A stretch of 64,000 nt of DNA from Desulfonatronum lacustre DSM 10312 (GTDB taxonomy: Bacteria; Desulfobacterota; Desulfovibrionia; Desulfovibrionales; Desulfonatronaceae): assembly GCF_000519265.1 (NCBI RefSeq), contig NZ_KI912608.1:2141313-2205312 (forward strand), read 5' to 3'. The notes beneath the pieces were generated by a model. That model ran no database searches. It was not told the origin of the DNA and saw nothing but the letters and a program-made list of their open reading frames with translations. Shown here piece after piece: positions 4,636 through 45,265 of the stretch. Both the position numbers and the translations under genes were made by a program. The stretch's first letter is position 1. The number at the start of each line of letters is the position of its first letter.

Positions 4636-7620
4636 TCACAGCGTCGCCGCTTCCGAGACTTCCTCAAAAGCCTCGATCACGTCGCCGACCTTGATGTCGT
4701 TGAAGTTGGCCAGCCCCACGCCGCATTCAAAGCCCTTGAGCACTTCCTTGGCGTCTTCCTTAAAGCGCCTCAGCGAGCTGAGTTTGCCGGTGTAGATCAC
4801 CACGCCCTCGCGCAGCAGACGAATCTTGGCGTTGCGCAGCAGCTTGCCGTCCATCACCGCGCACCCGGCCACCATGCCGATCTTGGGCACGCTGAAGGTC
4901 TGGCGAACTTCGGCCTGCCCCAGGTAGGACTCCCGGATAATCGGCGAGAGCATTCCGGTCATGGCGTCACGGATGTCGTTCACCAGGTTGTAGATGATGT
5001 CGTAAAAGCGGATTTCCACGCTCTCGGACTCGGCCACTTCCTTGACCTTGGCCACGGGCCGGACGTTGAAGCCGATCACGATGGCCGAAGAGGCCGCGGC
5101 CAGCATGACGTCGGATTCGGTGATGGCCCCGGCGCCGGAGTGGACGATCCGCACCCGGACCTCGTCCGTGGACAGCTTGAGCAGGGACTCGGAGACCGCC
5201 TCGGCGGACCCCTGCACATCGGTCTTGATGACCAGATTCAGGAACTTGGCCTCGCCGGCCGCCTTGGAGGCCAGGAAGCTGTCCAGGGTGACCTTGGTGG
5301 CCTTGGCCAGGGCCTTTTCGCGCTCCTTGGTCATGCGGGACTGGGCGATCCGGCGGGCGATTTTTTCATCCGCCACCACCACGAATTCGTCCCCGGATTC
5401 CCCCAGACCGTCAAAGCCTTGCACTTCCACCGGAAAGGCCGGACCGGCTTCCTTGATCTTCTTGCCCTTGTCGTCGAACATGGCCCGGACCTTGCCCTGG
5501 TACAGGCCGCAGACAAAGACGTCGCCGTCGCGCAGGGTCCCTTCCTGGATCAACACCGTGGCCACCGGCCCGCGGCCCTTGTCCAGACGGGCTTCCACGA
5601 TCCGCCCCCGGGCTCGCTTGGTCGGATTGGCTTTGAGATCCAGAACCTCGGCCTGGAGCAGAACCATTTCCAGCAGTTCGTCCAGACCGATGCGCTGTTT
5701 GGCCGAGACGTTGGCGAAAATCGTGTCTCCGCCCCAGGCTTCGGCCAGCAGCCCCATTTCGCTCAACTCGCGGATCACCCGTTCCGGGTTGGCGTCTTCC
5801 TTGTCGATCTTGTTCACGGCCACGACGATGGGCACCCCGGCGGCCTTGGCATGGTTCACGGCTTCCTTGGTCTGTTCCATCACGCCGTCGTCCGCGGCCA
5901 CCACCAGGATGACCAGGTCCGTGACCTGAGCTCCACGGGCACGCATGGCCGTGAAGGCTTCGTGACCGGGCGTGTCCAGAAAGGTCACCGCGCCGCGATT
6001 GGTCTCCACGTGATACGCGCCGATATGCTGGGTGATCCCCCCGGCCTCGCCCTTGGTCACGTTGGACTCGCGGATGGCGTCCAACAGAGAGGTCTTGCCG
6101 TGGTCCACGTGGCCCATGATGGTCACAACCGGAGAACGCGCCACGAGATCTTCCGGCTTGTCCTCTTCACGGATGTGCGTGAACCCTTCTTCCATGAACC
6201 CGACCTGCTCCACCTCGTAGCCGAACTCCGCGGCCACCAAGGTCGCCGTATCCATGTCGATGGATTGGTTGATGGTGGTCATCACGCCCATGGAAAACAG
6301 GGTCTTGATGATCTCCTGGGCCTTGAGCCCCATCTGCTTGGCCATCTCCGAAACCCGGATGGCCTCTTCCATGCGGATTTTACGCTTGGCGGCCTTGATC
6401 GGCTGGGTTCCGGCCTGACCGGCCTGACCTTCGGCTTCGTGACGAAACTTAGGGCGCGACCGCTTGGCCCGGAACTTGCCGCCGGTCCGATCCTGAACCG
6501 GAGTGGTTTTCTTCTTTTTCCAGGACGGATCACCGCGGTCCTGTTCTCCGAGCACCGTAGGCTGGGTGATCTCCACAGTGCGTTTGCCCTTTTTCTTCTT
6601 CTTCCGATCCGAGGCGCTATCGCCCTGCGCACCGGCGTCCGCCCCGGCCCGGGCAGGCGCTTCCGCAGCGCCGGGCGTCCGAACCGGAGTGGGGGTGTAC
6701 GGCTTGCTTTCGGGCTTATAGGAAAAGTCCGGCTTGGCTTCCGGCTTGGAAATGATCCGCACCTGCGGTCCGCTCTGGATCAACGGCTCGCGCTTCCGCG
6801 GTTTCCGCTTCTTCGCCTTTTCACCGACGGCTTCCGATGCAGCCGCATCGGACTCTTCGCCGGTGGCCGCCTCGGCGGGAGCCGCGGCTTCCACGTCCTC
6901 AGTTTTTGCATCACCCGTCGCATCCTCGCCGGATACGAATCCGTCGTCGGACGTGACGCCCTCCGTCCGTGTATCCACCGTACCGGAAACATCCGACACA
7001 TCCGGCATATCCGACACATCCGGCACATCCGGCATATCCGACACATCCGGCACATCCTGCGCGGCTGGAGTATCCGACGCAACACGCGCCGCCGTCTCTT
7101 CGGAGGCAGGTGTGGAAGGGGCATCCGCCCCGACTTCTTCTGCGCCTGGTTCTTTCATGTCCGGGGCGACAGGCTCTTCGGATGTGCCGATAATCCGTGC
7201 CGGGGGAGCGTCCACGGTCTTTTTTCCAGCCCGACGCTGAGCCGGCGCAGCGGCCTCGGTCGCATCCTCAGCTTTCTCCGCCGCTCCCTTGACCGCATCC
7301 TGCTCCAAACCATCCGTTCTCTCGGGAGCCGGGACATCCTCGGGCTGATCTCCGGAGGCGTCCGAAGCTTCCTGGGCGTCCGGCTTGGCGACCTTCCGTC
7401 GCCGCCGCAAAATGACCCCGGGTTGGATCTCCCGCTGCTGAACATCGACAGGGGCGTCCTTGCGCTGCATTCTCTCTCGAACCTGGGCGGCCTCCTCTTC
7501 GGAGATGCTGCTGACATGGCTTTTCACCGGGATGTCCAGCTCGCGCAAGACTTGCAGCAATTCCTTATTGCTGACCCCAAGTTCAGAAGACAATTCCATA
7601 ATGCGTATCTTATTGGCCAT
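4636..7620 (-). CDS. infB: Translation initiation factor IF-2
   Basis: IF-2 is the GTPase that brings fMet-tRNA to the 30S subunit and promotes subunit joining. At 994 aa it is a long form. Layout: IF2_N helix at residues 1-50 ([22 protein letters not shown]), a long low-complexity acidic/alanine linker to about 400, a second N-terminal helical domain ([21 protein letters not shown]), then the G domain with GHVDHGKTS near residue 500, DTPGHEAF and NKIDKED, and the C-terminal fMet-tRNA-binding domains. Residues about 188-211 are a run of DVPDVSDMP-type triplets from a 9-nt tandem repeat. The start overlaps the end of ylxR by 11 nt. Confidence 0.97.
6988..7059 (-). repeat. 9-nt tandem repeat inside infB
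   Basis: Eight consecutive 9-nt units, mostly cacatccgg, cacatccga or catatccga on the plus strand. In frame they encode D-V-P, D-V-S and D-M-P triplets in the linker of IF-2. The reading frame is kept, as expected for a period divisible by three. Confidence 0.9.
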
Positions 7621-12942: not shown

Positions 12943-13013
12943 GCCGATGCGTGACCGTGCGACGCTCCCGAGCCGAAGAACCGACCAAAGCAAGCAAACA
13001 CGAGGATAATGCG

Positions 13014-13754
13014 ATGACCGACAAAATACTCTCCATACGCCCAGCCGTAGCCGTGCTCATGCCCCTGGCAATGCTCCTCGGGCTGAGCGGGTTTGCCTGC
13101 GCCCCGGCCAGCACTCAAAGCATGCCGAGCCCGATCCTGACCCAAACCGTGGACTACCCCCAACCGGCCGAACTCAATCCCGGTTCGCTGTTCAACCCGG
13201 CCAGCGCGGAGCTGCTCTTCGCGGACAATCGGGCCAGGCGGGTGGGAGACATCGTCCGGATCAAGGTCGTGGAGGAAAGCAAGGCCACGAACAAGGCCAC
13301 CACGGACACGTCCAGAGAGTCCGACATCGGCATGGGCATTGAGCACCTTTTGGACCAGCGGCTGATCAACGCGGGACTGCCGGTCTTGGGCATTGAGCGA
13401 GGCCAGTTTGGAGAAACTCCGCTGATCAGCGCCAGGACCTCCAACTCGTTCAAAGGCGACGGGGAAACCAAACGGGAATCCACCATCACGGCCACGGTCG
13501 GCGCACGGGTGGTCAAGACGCTTCCCAACGGCCTGATGCAGGTGGAGGGCGCCCGGGAAACCCGAGTGAACAACGAAACCCAGATCGTCGTGGTTCGGGG
13601 GCTGGTCCGGTCCACGGACATTGATCCGGACAACACCATCCTCTCCACCCACATGGCCGACGCGACCATCGAATTCTACGGCATGGGTGTTCTGGCGGAC
13701 AAACAACGGCCCGGATGGCTGACCCGGATCCTGGACAATGTCTGGCCGTTTTAA
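13014..13754 (+). CDS. flgH: Flagellar L-ring protein FlgH
   Basis: FlgH is the outer-membrane lipoprotein of the L ring. It is 246 aa from the ATG at 13014, which has a GAGGATA upstream; an upstream in-frame start at 12951 lacks any signal. The N-terminal hydrophobic segment ends in LSGFAC, an imperfect lipobox. Family blocks: SLFNPASAELLFADNRARRVGDIVRIKV and the C-terminal VVVRGLVRSTDIDPDNTILSTHMADATIEFYG (shown in part: GLVRSTDIDPDN). It follows flgA; a palindromic repeat element lies between it and flgI. Confidence 0.93.
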   Translation: MTDKILSIRPAVAVLMPLAMLLGLSGFACAPASTQSMPSPILTQTVDYPQPAELNPGSLFNPASAELLFADNRARRVGDIVRIKVVEESKATNKATTDTSRESDIGMGIEHLLDQRLINAGLPVLGIERGQFGETPLISARTSNSFKGDGETKRESTITATVGARVVKTLPNGLMQVEGARETRVNNETQIVVVRGLVRSTDIDPDNTILSTHMADATIEFYGMGVLADKQRPGWLTRILDNVWPF

Positions 13755-13786
13755 GGAAAAGTATACGAAATCAGTATTTAATCGTT

Positions 13787-13876
13787 GTCGAAATCGCAAT
13801 CGAAATCGAACTAAAATATTGATTTCAACGCATTGAAATGTCTTTTTGCAACATCGATTTCGATCACGATTTCGAC
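13787..13876. repeat. Hexamer-arm palindromic element A (flgH-flgI gap)
   Basis: The left arm (13787-13810) is built of ATCGAA-type 6-nt units and is the inverted complement of the right arm (13853-13876), with only about three mismatches in 24 nt. Between them an inner 7-bp hairpin ATTTCAA (13822-13828) / TTGAAAT (13833-13839) can form. The whole would fold as a long stem capped by a smaller hairpin. It lies inside an operon, 33 nt after flgH and about 60 nt before flgI, so full termination here seems unlikely. See the related elements at 33281, 34776 and 43107. Confidence 0.85.
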
Positions 13877-13939
13877 CTGATCCCGATACGTGCGAGCAGG
13901 ACAAGACCTTTGCCCCGGCGGCAATCCGGAGGAAATAGT

Positions 13940-15061
13940 ATGTGGAAGAGGTATTTCAAGGCTTCAGCCGTGCTGGTTCTCGCCATGGGCTTCTTGTTCG
14001 CGCTGATGGGAACGAATCCGGCCCAGGCCAGCGTCCGGATCAAGGACATCGCCACCGTGGCCGGCGACCGCAGCAACCAATTGGTGGGTTACGGCCTAGT
14101 TGTCGGTCTGTCGGGTACCGGCGACCGCCGAGGCGCGGAGTTCACCATCCAGTCCATGTCCAACATGCTGGAACGGATGGGGGTGCGGGTGGATCGCTCC
14201 AGGTTGCGGGTGCGTAACGTGGCCGCGGTGATGGTCACCACCCAAATGCCGGTTTCGTCCCGGGCCGGTTCCAGCCTGGACGTGTCCGTGTCCTCGGTGG
14301 GCGACGCCACCAGTCTTCTGGGCGGCGTCCTGCTGATGACCCCGCTGCGCGGCGTGGACGGCCAGACCTACGCCCTGGCCCAGGGCCCCTTGCTCCTGGG
14401 CGGATTCAGCGCCGGCGGCGACGCGGCCCAGGCCCAGAAAAACATCACCACCGTGGGTCTGATCCCCAACGGAGCCACGGTGGAACGCTCCGTTCCCTTC
14501 CAGTTCAACCAACAGGACAACGTGGTCCTGCATCTTCAGACCAAAGACTTTTCCACCGCGGTCCAGGTTGTGGACCGGATCAACGCCAACTTCGGCACCC
14601 CTTTGGCCCGGGCCATGGATGTCTCCACCATCGAAGTGGACGTCCCGGACATGTACCAGGGCAATCTGGTTCCCTTCATCGCGGCCCTGGAGGGTCTGCC
14701 CATCACCCCGGACTCACGGGCCCGGGTCGTGGTGGATGAGAAGACCGGCACCGTGGTCGTGGGCCAGAACGTCCGTTTGTCCAAAGTCGCCGTGGCCCAC
14801 GGGAATCTGCATATCGTCGTGGCCGAACGCCCGGAAGTGGTCCAGCCTCAACCCTTCTCCCTGGGTCAGACCGCCGTGGTCCCCCGCACCGAACTGGGCA
14901 TTCGCGAGGAAGACCGCCGCCTGACTCTCCTTGAAGGGGCCACGCTGCAAGACCTGGTCAACGGCCTCAACGCCATCGGCGCGACGCCCCGCGACCTGAT
15001 CTCCATCCTGCGCACCCTGAAGTCCGCCGGAGCGCTGCACGCGGACGTGGAGGTGATCTAA
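13940..15061 (+). CDS. flgI: Flagellar P-ring protein FlgI
   Basis: FlgI builds the periplasmic P ring around the distal rod. It is 373 aa from the ATG at 13940, which follows GGAGGAAA. A signal peptide is evident ([21 protein letters not shown]). Typical FlgI blocks are [31 protein letters not shown] (in part), [25 protein letters not shown] and the C-terminal [28 protein letters not shown]. The longer upstream frame from 13838 runs into the repeat element and is rejected. Its stop is immediately followed by the ATG of flgJ. Confidence 0.96.
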
Positions 15062-33187: not shown

Positions 33188-33280
33188 GATACTTCTCCCG
33201 GGGTTCCCGGCTGATAACGGAAAGAAGATCTTAAACCAATTCCACTTCGGTAATGCGTTATTCGTTTGAGAAAAACAGTT

Positions 33281-33380
33281 ATCGGTGTCGGCGCTTCGCT
33301 ATCGGTATCGGTATCGAATTCAGAATGTTAGTGACCAAACCGTATCGATCCCGATCCCGATTCCGACACCGAAAGCGAAT
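33281..33380. repeat. Hexamer-arm palindromic element B (hisG 3' flank)
   Basis: The left part (33281-33319) is made of ATCGGT-type 6-nt units starting ATCGGTGTCGG; the right part (33341-33380) is its imperfect inverted complement. The 28 nt at 33345-33372 are identical, in the same orientation, to 34845-34872 in element C. It lies between the hisG stop and the start of the TPR/SPOR gene, all minus strand. Confidence 0.85.
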
Positions 33381-33399
33381 CATTGAGTTGGAAACGGTC

Positions 33400-34656: not shown

Positions 34657-34775
34657 AGGGCAACTCCTCCGCAATTGTCCGAATAATGAAAAAGGTGTGG
34701 AATGCTGAAACTCGCGGCATAATTTGAAAAAAGTTGTAACCACTCAGTACATTTTATGTCCGATCTTGCACCGCC

Positions 34776-34873
34776 AATCGGTGTCGGGGTCGGTATCGGA
34801 GTCGGAATCGAAACAGGAAGAATTGAGAACGCATCCCAGCGTTTTCGATCCCGATCCCGATTCCGACACCGAC
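34776..34873. repeat. Hexamer-arm palindromic element C (hisI 5' flank)
   Basis: The left part (34776-34814) starts with ATCGGTGTCGG and continues in 6-nt TCGGxA units; the right part (34841-34873) is its imperfect inverted complement. An inner hairpin AACGC (34828-34832) / GCGTT (34839-34843) lies between. The 28 nt 34845-34872 are identical to part of element B, exactly 1500 bp away. It lies between the rlmN stop and hisI. Confidence 0.87.
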
Positions 34874-34928
34874 AACAGAATTTCTCTGTGCTGTGTAGTT
34901 GCAAAAAGTATAAGACTTTTTTCAACCG

Positions 34929-40442: not shown

Positions 40443-43067
40443 ATGCCTTCCTTGCTTGACCAGTTGATCGCCAAAAGCAAAATCACCATGCGCATCGCAC
40501 CGGAAGAATTGGCTTTTCAACGCAAATACCTGTTCTTCAAAAAGCTGCTCGGCCACAACAACAAGTCCCTGCAGTTGATCAACGCCCTGGAGAATCTGCT
40601 CTACGACTCCCAGCCCTTCACCTTCGACGAGGTCCTCTGCCAGTGCGAGGAACTGGTGGGCGTGGTCTACGAGCTGGCCGAGGATCTGAACGCACTTTCC
40701 GGCGGCAAATATTCGGAACTGTTCAGCGCGGCTGAGCGGATCGGCATCCAGGTCCTGCGGGGATTGACCAGGCAGCGCAAGCTGGAAAAAACCTGTCTCG
40801 TGCTTCCGCTGGTCAGGCTGAGCCACGAAAATGTGGGGCAGGTCGGCGGCAAGGCGGCCAACCTGGGCGAAGTGTCCAACCGTGTCGGGTTGCCCACGCC
40901 CAAGGGGTTCGCGGTCTCGGCCTATGCCTGTCACGATTTTTTCCGCTCCGCGGGGCTGTACGAGGCCATCCGCGGCGAACTGAAAGGCGTGGACATCCAG
41001 GACACCACGCAACTCACCAAAGCCTGCTCCGCGGTGCAGCAGCTGATCATGGCCGCCCCGCTGCCCGAGGACCTGGAATGTCGCATCTTCTACGAGGCCA
41101 AGGAGCTGTTTCAGGAGTTCGGACCGCAAACCCGCCTCGCCATGCGCAGCAGCGCCACGGGCGAGGACTCGGAATCCTCCTTCGCCGGTCAGCACTCCAC
41201 GATCCTCAACGTCACCCAGGACACCATTCTCGGTGCCTACAAGGAAGTCGTGGCCAGCATGTACAATCCCCGCGCGGTCTTTTACCGCCGCAGCGTGGGC
41301 TACCGGGACCAGGACATGGTCATGTGCGTGCTCTGCCTGAACATGGTCGACGCCCGTGTCAGCGGGGTGATGTACACCCAGGACCCCAACGAACCGGAAA
41401 GCCAAAACCTGATCATCAGCGCGGCTTGGGGCCTGGGCGTGAGCGTGGTGGACGGCTCCATGCCCACGGATTTGTGGCGGGTGAATTCTCAGGTGAATTC
41501 TCAGGTGAACTCTCAGGTGAACTCTCGGGTGAATTCCGAGGAGGGTGAGCCGGAATACGTCGGGGCGCACAAGGCCAGGCGCATCGCCATGAACCCCGAA
41601 GGTGGAATCCATGACGTCCCGGTGGAAGAGCATCTTCAAGGCCAACCCTGCCTGAGCGGCGACGAGGTTCACGCTTTGGCCGAGTACGGGCGAATGCTGG
41701 AAAAGCACTATAAACGCCCCTTGGACATCGAATGGGCCATGGACCAGGCCGGCAAACTCTTCATTCTGCAGGCCCGGCCCCTGAACCTGATGCTGCCGGA
41801 GCAGGACCCTCGCGCCTGTGCCAAGGAGGCGGCCGCGGCCCTGGAAGGGCACGACGTCCTGCTGTGCGGCGGCACCACGGCCTCCGCCGGCACGGCTGGC
41901 GGTCCGGCCTTTGTTCTGAAGACAGAGCACAGCCTGACCGCCGTACCCGAAGGAGCGATTCTGGTCACCCCACAGACTTCAACCCTGTACGTGCCGCTGA
42001 TGGGCAAAATCCGGGGAATCATCACCGACGTGGGCAGCGTCACCGGGCACATGGCCTCCGTGGCCCGGGAGTTCGGCGTTCCGACCCTGGTGGGCACGGA
42101 CAACGCCACCAGCGTCATTCCCCACGGCGAGGAAATTACCTTGGACGCCTCCCGCCGGACCGTCTACGCCGGGCGGGTCATGACCCTGATCCAGGCCAGG
42201 CCGCGCACCAACCTGATGAAAGGCAGTCCGCTGTTCCGGCTGGTCAAGGACACGTTGAAAAAAATCGTCCCCTTGAATCTGATCGATCCCAAGCGCGACG
42301 ACTTCCGCCCCGACGGCTGCCTGACCCTGCACGATGTGGTCCGCTTCGCCCACGAAAAGGCCATGGTGGAAATGTTCCGCATCGACGACGAGATCCGGGA
42401 AGACACCCATCTCGCGGTCAAATTGAAGACGTCCTTGCCGCTGAACACCTACATCCTCGACCTGGGCGGCGGATTCAAAGCCCCGCCCGAGGGCGGAGCC
42501 GTGGACCGGGAGAACATCGCGTCCAGGCCGTTCCTGGCCCTGCTCCGGGGCATGGAGCATCCCGGCGTGCATTGGGTGGGACCGGCGGGAGTCCAGCTCT
42601 CCGGATTCGCCGCGCTCATCGCCGAGACGATCCTGAACGACCCGGACCACGGAAGCCCGAGGGGAGGGCCGAACTACGCCATCATTTCCGACGACTACCT
42701 GCACTACAACGCCCGCCTGGGCTACCATTTCGTGACCATCGACACCTACTGCGGCCAGCAGGTCAACGACAATTACATCACCTTCTCGTTCAAGGGCGGA
42801 GCCGCGGACGTGTCGCGCCGAACCAAGCGCGCGATGCTGATCGCGGCCATCCTGAAGCGCCTGGGGCTGCGGGTCGAACAGACGGGGGACATGGTGCGCG
42901 GGGAAATCAAAAAATACGATCATCCCCGGATGGAGGAAAAACTGGATTTTCTCGGACGACTCCTGGGCTCGGTCCGTCTCCTGGACATGGTCCTCTCCGA
43001 CGAGGCCCAGATTCCCTGGTACGTGGAGCAGTTCTTCAAGGGAAATTATTCCTTCGAGCAGTGTTGA
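40443..43067 (+). CDS. PEP-synthase/PPDK-like protein with ATP-grasp and phosphohistidine domains but no PEP barrel
   Basis: An 874-aa protein. After about 100 helical residues of unknown role, residues about 120-440 are the ATP-binding PPDK domain (VGQVGGKAANLGEVSNRVGLPTPKGFAVS in part; RLAMRSSATGEDSESSFAGQH; LDIEWAMDQAGKLFILQARPL). The swivelling domain has GIITDVGSVTGHMASVAREFGVP (in part) with the phosphorylated His near 537. The last 270 residues, where PEP synthase would have its TIM barrel, are of no family I recognise. Residues 347-366 are five near-copies of QVNS from a 12-nt repeat. It may transfer phosphate to another acceptor. Divergent from pyrB. Confidence 0.82.
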   Translation: MPSLLDQLIAKSKITMRIAPEELAFQRKYLFFKKLLGHNNKSLQLINALENLLYDSQPFTFDEVLCQCEELVGVVYELAEDLNALSGGKYSELFSAAERIGIQVLRGLTRQRKLEKTCLVLPLVRLSHENVGQVGGKAANLGEVSNRVGLPTPKGFAVSAYACHDFFRSAGLYEAIRGELKGVDIQDTTQLTKACSAVQQLIMAAPLPEDLECRIFYEAKELFQEFGPQTRLAMRSSATGEDSESSFAGQHSTILNVTQDTILGAYKEVVASMYNPRAVFYRRSVGYRDQDMVMCVLCLNMVDARVSGVMYTQDPNEPESQNLIISAAWGLGVSVVDGSMPTDLWRVNSQVNSQVNSQVNSRVNSEEGEPEYVGAHKARRIAMNPEGGIHDVPVEEHLQGQPCLSGDEVHALAEYGRMLEKHYKRPLDIEWAMDQAGKLFILQARPLNLMLPEQDPRACAKEAAAALEGHDVLLCGGTTASAGTAGGPAFVLKTEHSLTAVPEGAILVTPQTSTLYVPLMGKIRGIITDVGSVTGHMASVAREFGVPTLVGTDNATSVIPHGEEITLDASRRTVYAGRVMTLIQARPRTNLMKGSPLFRLVKDTLKKIVPLNLIDPKRDDFRPDGCLTLHDVVRFAHEKAMVEMFRIDDEIREDTHLAVKLKTSLPLNTYILDLGGGFKAPPEGGAVDRENIASRPFLALLRGMEHPGVHWVGPAGVQLSGFAALIAETILNDPDHGSPRGGPNYAIISDDYLHYNARLGYHFVTIDTYCGQQVNDNYITFSFKGGAADVSRRTKRAMLIAAILKRLGLRVEQTGDMVRGEIKKYDHPRMEEKLDFLGRLLGSVRLLDMVLSDEAQIPWYVEQFFKGNYSFEQC
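41481..41540 (+). repeat. 12-nt tandem repeat inside the PEP-synthase-like gene
   Basis: Five consecutive units of GTGAATTCTCAG with one to three changes, encoding VNSQ repeats within the ATP-binding domain. The repeat keeps frame and probably forms a surface loop. Confidence 0.92.
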
Positions 43068-43106
43068 CGGTCTTCGGACCGTCTCCATCATACCTTTATC
43101 TCTTCA

Positions 43107-43226
43107 AAATCGAGATCGAAATCGAAATCGAAATCGAAAAACACCGATCATCACTCCGTGATCACGCCATCTTCTTTGATATGGCGTTCGATTTCGATGA
43201 CGATTTCGATTTCGATTTCGATTCGG
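43107..43226. repeat. Hexamer-arm palindromic element D (convergent gene gap)
   Basis: The left arm (43107-43140) and right arm (43188-43226) are tandem ATCGAA units in inverted orientation. Two further hairpins lie between them: GATCA (43146-43150)/TGATC (43159-43163) and CGCCAT (43165-43170)/ATGGCG (43181-43186), so the whole could fold as a four-way junction. It fills the gap between two convergent genes and could end both transcripts. Confidence 0.9.
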
Positions 43227-43268
43227 ACAGCACGTGAGGATCGAGAACAAATCCGTCTTCGGACCGCC

Positions 43269-45209: not shown

Positions 45210-45265
45210 TCCCCTGACTCCCGCCTCCCGCCTCCTGACTTCTGAATCCTGACTCCTGACTTCTC
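45210..45265. repeat. Heptamer tandem repeat tract
   Basis: About eight consecutive 7-nt units of the form CTCCTGA, CTCCCGC, CTTCTGA or ATCCTGA between pyrK and the DUF493 gene. One strand is nearly purine-free in G-poor blocks (C/T-rich). Such TCCTGAC heptamer tracts recur between genes in unrelated bacteria; no coding potential. Confidence 0.88.

Follow-up and report, generated by a model that had tools for sequence, protein, structure and literature searches.

Element A, the palindrome located between flgH and flgI in the flagellar operon of Desulfonatronum lacustre, is best explained as a decaying non-autonomous mobile element, i.e., a palindromic insertion of the MITE type with slipping arms and no sign of selection, a reading to which we assign a probability of roughly 0.7. 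According to this reading, A would be a member of a loosely defined class, ~200 elements strong in this genome, in which transposon-type ends surround a palindromic core with (TCGNNA)n arms. Two or more families of the class would have been mobilized by a DDE transposase that acted on their ends in trans, and for family I its source is absent from the present genome. A itself would have entered the flgH-flgI gap when the lineage had already separated from the congener G003 but not yet from G005, its arms would afterwards have lengthened and shortened independently by slippage, and it would now be transcribed within the flg operon as a hairpin leader of flgI on which selection has left no sign.

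All positions refer to the window, which is the whole 64,000-nucleotide stretch of DNA analyzed here. Element A occupies 13757-13902 (~146 bp), contains no gene of its own, and is flanked by flgH (12951-13754, + strand; PF02107, 5e-58) and flgI (13940-15061, + strand; PF02119, 6e-139), both identified by Pfam. Its surroundings form a flagellar cluster, and the close relatives of this flgI are from Desulfonatronum (order Desulfovibrionales). The first-pass annotation had described a palindrome between these two genes with 24-nt arms of ATCGAA units and an inner 7-bp hairpin, which the arms, the fold, and the Pfam assignments all confirm, except that the hexamer arms measure 23 nt and their unit is more exactly TCGNNR. 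The left arm GTCGAAATCGCAATCGAAATCGA (13787-13809, + strand) and the right arm TCGATTTCGATCACGATTTCGAC (13854-13876, - strand) are 91% complementary and 44 nt apart, while the inner hairpin ATTTCAA cgca TTGAAAT (13822-13839, + strand; halves 13822-13828 and 13833-13839) lies within the loop and is found in the predicted RNA fold as well. The stem contains a 2x2 mismatch, with CA opposite CA, and is lengthened by a pair of outer repeats, GTATACGAAATCAG (13761-13774, + strand) and CTGATCCCGATAC (13877-13889, - strand), which pair imperfectly and may be terminal inverted repeats of A. As RNA (129 nt), A has a predicted folding energy of -39.3 kcal/mol (z -5.28), with 0/200 shuffles as good. An Rfam search over the window yielded only a tRNA and no match to A. 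The window contains 11 occurrences of TCGAAATCG vs 0.87 expected.

Comparison with the congeners reveals both an empty and a filled site for A. In G003, whose FlgI is 92% identical, the flgH-flgI gap reads TTTTAGGAAGACTTACACCCCGGCGGC, passing from the flgH stop and GG into AAGACTTACACCCCGGCGGC with the element missing, whereas G005 (FlgI 96% identical) carries a diverged orthologue of A with another loop and a damaged right arm. The combination of an empty site in G003 and a filled site in G005 indicates that A entered after the G003 split, and these alignments show that it was inserted as a unit. In G006, G002, and G004, the flgH-flgI gap is a different short sequence, also devoid of the element. 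The flanks of A, AGGAAAAG and AGGACAAG, match at 7/8 positions, which may be an 8-bp target duplication or due to chance. The only kin sharing its right end are L111 and L112, which are a single orthologous locus pair elsewhere; around 1410-1520, these two represent a second palindrome locus common to G007 and the window genome (G000), in which the flanks are conserved and the core is strongly diverged. Intergenic heptamer tandem repeats (GGTGAAG, GGTTCAAC-type) were also observed in the flgH-flgI gap of G007 (L016:1-25) and around position 8280 of L061.

A had been listed as one of four related elements, and four hexamer-arm palindromes do exist in the window (13787, 33296, 34778, and 43104), but their loops and ends are unlike one another. 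The second element (33207-33391, core 33296-33378) belongs to family III as defined below. The third (34736-34902, core 34778-34872) is a family I MITE with the ends GTAACCACTCAGTACA and TGTGCTGTGTAGTTGC and is flanked by the near-duplicate AAAAAGTT/AAAAAGTA (7/8). The fourth (43065-43258, core 43104-43223) belongs to family IV, has TCTTCGGACC repeats on both flanks, and is missing from both G005 and G003. The nearest relative, G005, is without counterparts of all three, although alignment quality declines from 43104 (good) through 34778 (weaker) to 33296 (poor), where the alignment breaks at 33207-33391. As these three elements have no G005 counterpart, transposition went on more recently than the entry of A. 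It should be noted that the window also contains other short tandem repeats at 6989-7057 (27-nt unit, within a long ORF), 41480-41536 (GGTGAATTCTCA x4.8), and 45213-45261 (CCTGACT x7).

The first-pass annotation had also named a lack of further copies in the genome as grounds for refutation, but these fail, since the pattern TCGAAATCGNNATCGAAATCG with ≤3 mismatches has 502 forward and 515 reverse matches in the 3.76-Mb chromosome, vs 0 and 1 matches for the reversed control pattern. A sample of 864 kb was examined, made up of the window and 40 further 20-kb stretches (partly picked on pattern hits), and it yielded 95 palindromes whose two arms both contain hexamer arrays. Scaled by pattern hits, this corresponds to ~214 hexamer-arm palindromes genome-wide, with the caveat that such scaling corrects the hit-biased sampling only roughly and the counts are therefore estimates. 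All eight Desulfonatronum genomes except G002 contain pattern matches, while the distribution across the order is patchy. It is similarly patchy in a sample of the phylum, where exact matches are present in 9/395 genomes. Among the outside loci that were read, most arrays again form opposed arms around a loop, with differing loops and flanks.

The hexamer-arm palindromes comprise several families rather than one, having in common only the (TCGNNA)n arms around a loop. Because single-linkage clustering of the masked copies lumped nearly everything together through residual repeats, we defined families by their ends and loops. Family I, which includes the window element at 34736-34902, has the ends GTAWCTACTCAGCAC and ~100 copies by end count, in which the distance between paired ends is almost always 150-240 bp. 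The ends of families II and IV are CAGGGCARATTTGTTCTC (46+53 ends), and family III, represented by 33207-33391, has ends similar to TWATACCAATTC. The remaining copies, A among them, were placed in none of these families. For 30 family I end pairs, flank identity is 0.77 at exactly 8 bp vs ~0.3-0.43 at other lengths, and 13/30 pairs have a perfect 8-bp flank duplication. For 15 family II/IV pairs, it is 0.74 at exactly 10 bp vs 0.2-0.41 at other lengths. These 8-bp and 10-bp peaks reflect target duplications left by two distinct transposition systems, and both families (I and II/IV) are proven transposon-type insertions (MITEs). The ends of A match neither of them, with GTAWCTACTCAGCAC ends being absent from 13757-13902, and A was presumably transposed by the same kind of machinery. 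In 4/30 pairs, family I ends enclose other, non-hexamer palindromes, e.g. ATTCCCGCCTTCGCGGGAATGACG (L068:645-824, L068:1016-1180, L064:6730-6883, and L043:18800-19024), indicating that ends and cores are separable. The unusual feature of this genome is that the same hexamer-arm core lies within transposons of unrelated ends.

With regard to the responsible transposases, families II/IV combine CAGGG ends with their 10-bp duplications, and we take CAGGG ends to be a mark of ISAs1, which is the basis of our ISAs1-type label for these families. The ISAs1-associated domain PF13808 had no match in the window genome. IS66 elements are known to produce 8-bp target duplications (PMC3281130). An IS66 transposase remnant of the congener G001 runs into GTAACTACTCAGCAT, which is a family I end and contains its last codons, and this remnant, a transposase C-terminus, matches Pfam DDE_Tnp_IS66 barely above the cut-off; the IS66 match for family I thus concerns a remnant in G001 and one end only. 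Directly upstream of the remnant, and apparently inserted into it, is an ORF encoding a 478-aa IS1634/IS4-like transposase (L156:10-1740, on G001:C27). Neither an IS66 transposase nor an autonomous partner carrying these ends was found in the window genome.

The first-pass annotation had proposed that the 6-nt repeats grew within pre-existing arms, and this is supported in outline, as it fits the independent variation in arm length. Arm lengths are uncorrelated between the two sides of a palindrome (rho 0.10, p 0.36) and equal in only 19/95, and single arms reach 15-16 units. L045:5644-5825, L042:17417-17583, and L060:7722-7839 each have one arm of 11-16 hexamers opposite an arm of still 4-6. 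To compare arm sequences, agreement was scored at three variable positions per hexamer. In loop-oriented family I copies, agreement was 0.590 for the two arms of one copy vs 0.584 ± 0.014 for arms swapped between copies, and the other groups, pooled and unoriented, gave the same outcome, although this ungapped, anchored scoring could miss weak covariation. No compensatory changes between arms were detected among the copies. Since same-copy arms agree no better than swapped ones, and since the two arms vary in length without correlation, they resemble microsatellites that slip independently of each other more than a pairing structure kept by conservation, and slippage would be the probable cause of their variation. 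With no covariation within copies, the second ground for refutation given in the first-pass annotation, arms that are not conserved as complementary, largely applies, and the complementarity of the arms of A derives from the common hexamer framework, not from compensatory change.

That A instead acts within the flg transcript as a functional hairpin, either stabilizing the flgH side or damping flgI translation, is improbable. It does form a strong hairpin within an operon gap (z -5.28) and its outer repeats are able to pair in both G000 and G005, but the element is missing in G003, G004, G006, and G002, the fold of its G005 orthologue is weak (z -1.07, with 24/200 shuffles as good), arm covariation among copies is lacking, and the architecture is alike in divergent, tandem, and convergent gaps. 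The empty sites, the weak G005 fold, and the lack of arm covariation equally speak against the role in mRNA stability, differential expression, or DNA binding that had been suggested for A. It is barely credible that the palindromes are transcription terminators or 3'-end elements, even though they do reside in intergenic DNA. A has no U-run after its stem and received no terminator call, in agreement with the earlier view that it is not simply a strong terminator. Furthermore, among 82 intergenic copies with both neighboring genes called, 25 are in --, 21 in ++, 23 in divergent, and 13 in convergent gaps; with the proviso that the gene calls are crude, this mix is near the background of gaps ≥60 bp and convergent gaps are not enriched (13/82 vs ~20% expected), which argues for no preference for gene ends. 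The simplest reading is that A is neutral or mildly tolerated in the flg operon, with neutrality here being what we infer from these patterns, and A may have a local effect on flgI expression.

Two further explanations concern how the palindromes spread. It is highly doubtful that they are REP-type palindromes mobilized by a RAYT (Y1 HUH) transposase. They are intergenic and of high copy number, and two clusters in the genome (G000:C1:2080209-2082760 and 2812731-2825841) together contain five Y1_Tnp (RAYT/IS200-like) genes, yet the 40 kb around these genes (L051 and L052) contain no hexamer array, and two families have terminal inverted repeats together with 8-bp or 10-bp target duplications, which single-strand HUH transposition is not known to make. 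For families I and II/IV, the end repeats and target duplications largely refute such an origin. An unlikely alternative treats the hexamer-arm core as a module in its own right, which moves or is copied among transposons whose ends differ or has been recruited for a function, e.g. as a transposition enhancer. Similar (TCGNNA)n cores do occur in families whose ends and loops are unrelated, family I ends also hold non-hexamer palindromes, and the pattern recurs patchily in the phylum, but no bare core bearing an insertion signature of its own was found, and short arms that slipped convergently would give an identical picture. Were there such a module, it might have been repeatedly acquired by transposons whose ends are unrelated (IS66-like, ISAs1-like, and others) and spread by unrelated transposases, possibly aiding mobilization or host tolerance, a scenario that we likewise hold to be unlikely. 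The recurrence of hexamer arms could reflect either convergent slippage or core exchange.

With A read as a decaying mobile element, a suspected regulatory hairpin of the flagellar operon becomes a dated insertion, located in a genome where the same palindrome with microsatellite arms occurs between two or more types of transposon end. Should the core be a shared module, the genome would offer a natural setting in which to test why palindromic cores are retained by mobile elements. Should it not, the complementarity of the long arms would come from repeat slippage rather than selection, which would advise caution in calling structured RNAs from palindromes.

Several known systems share some of these features. 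REP/BIME sequences with their RAYT (PMC2817692, PMC3733652) are similarly high-copy intergenic palindromes, whereas the elements described here have no link to Y1 genes and two of their families exhibit target duplications and terminal inverted repeats. Like RUP, Correia, RPE, and BOX (reviewed in PMC10969869), they are short, non-coding, intergenic, stem-loop elements mobilized in trans; in the literature searched, we found no description of hexamer-period arms among these or other prokaryotic MITEs. IS66-derived MITEs are comparable to family I in its GTAA-type ends, its 8-bp duplications, and the end held in common with the congener IS66 remnant. Unlike such MITEs, family I has a hexamer-arm palindrome as its core with no recognized IS66 internal sequence, the window genome is without an IS66 transposase, and A has other ends. 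BrickBuilt of Porphyromonas gingivalis, a MITE carrying a minisatellite with a 23-nt direct repeat in one array (PMC4596501), also combines a tandem repeat of variable copy number with enclosing inverted-repeat ends, but the repeats described here are 6 nt long, are arranged as two opposed arms of a palindrome, and occur within several end families.
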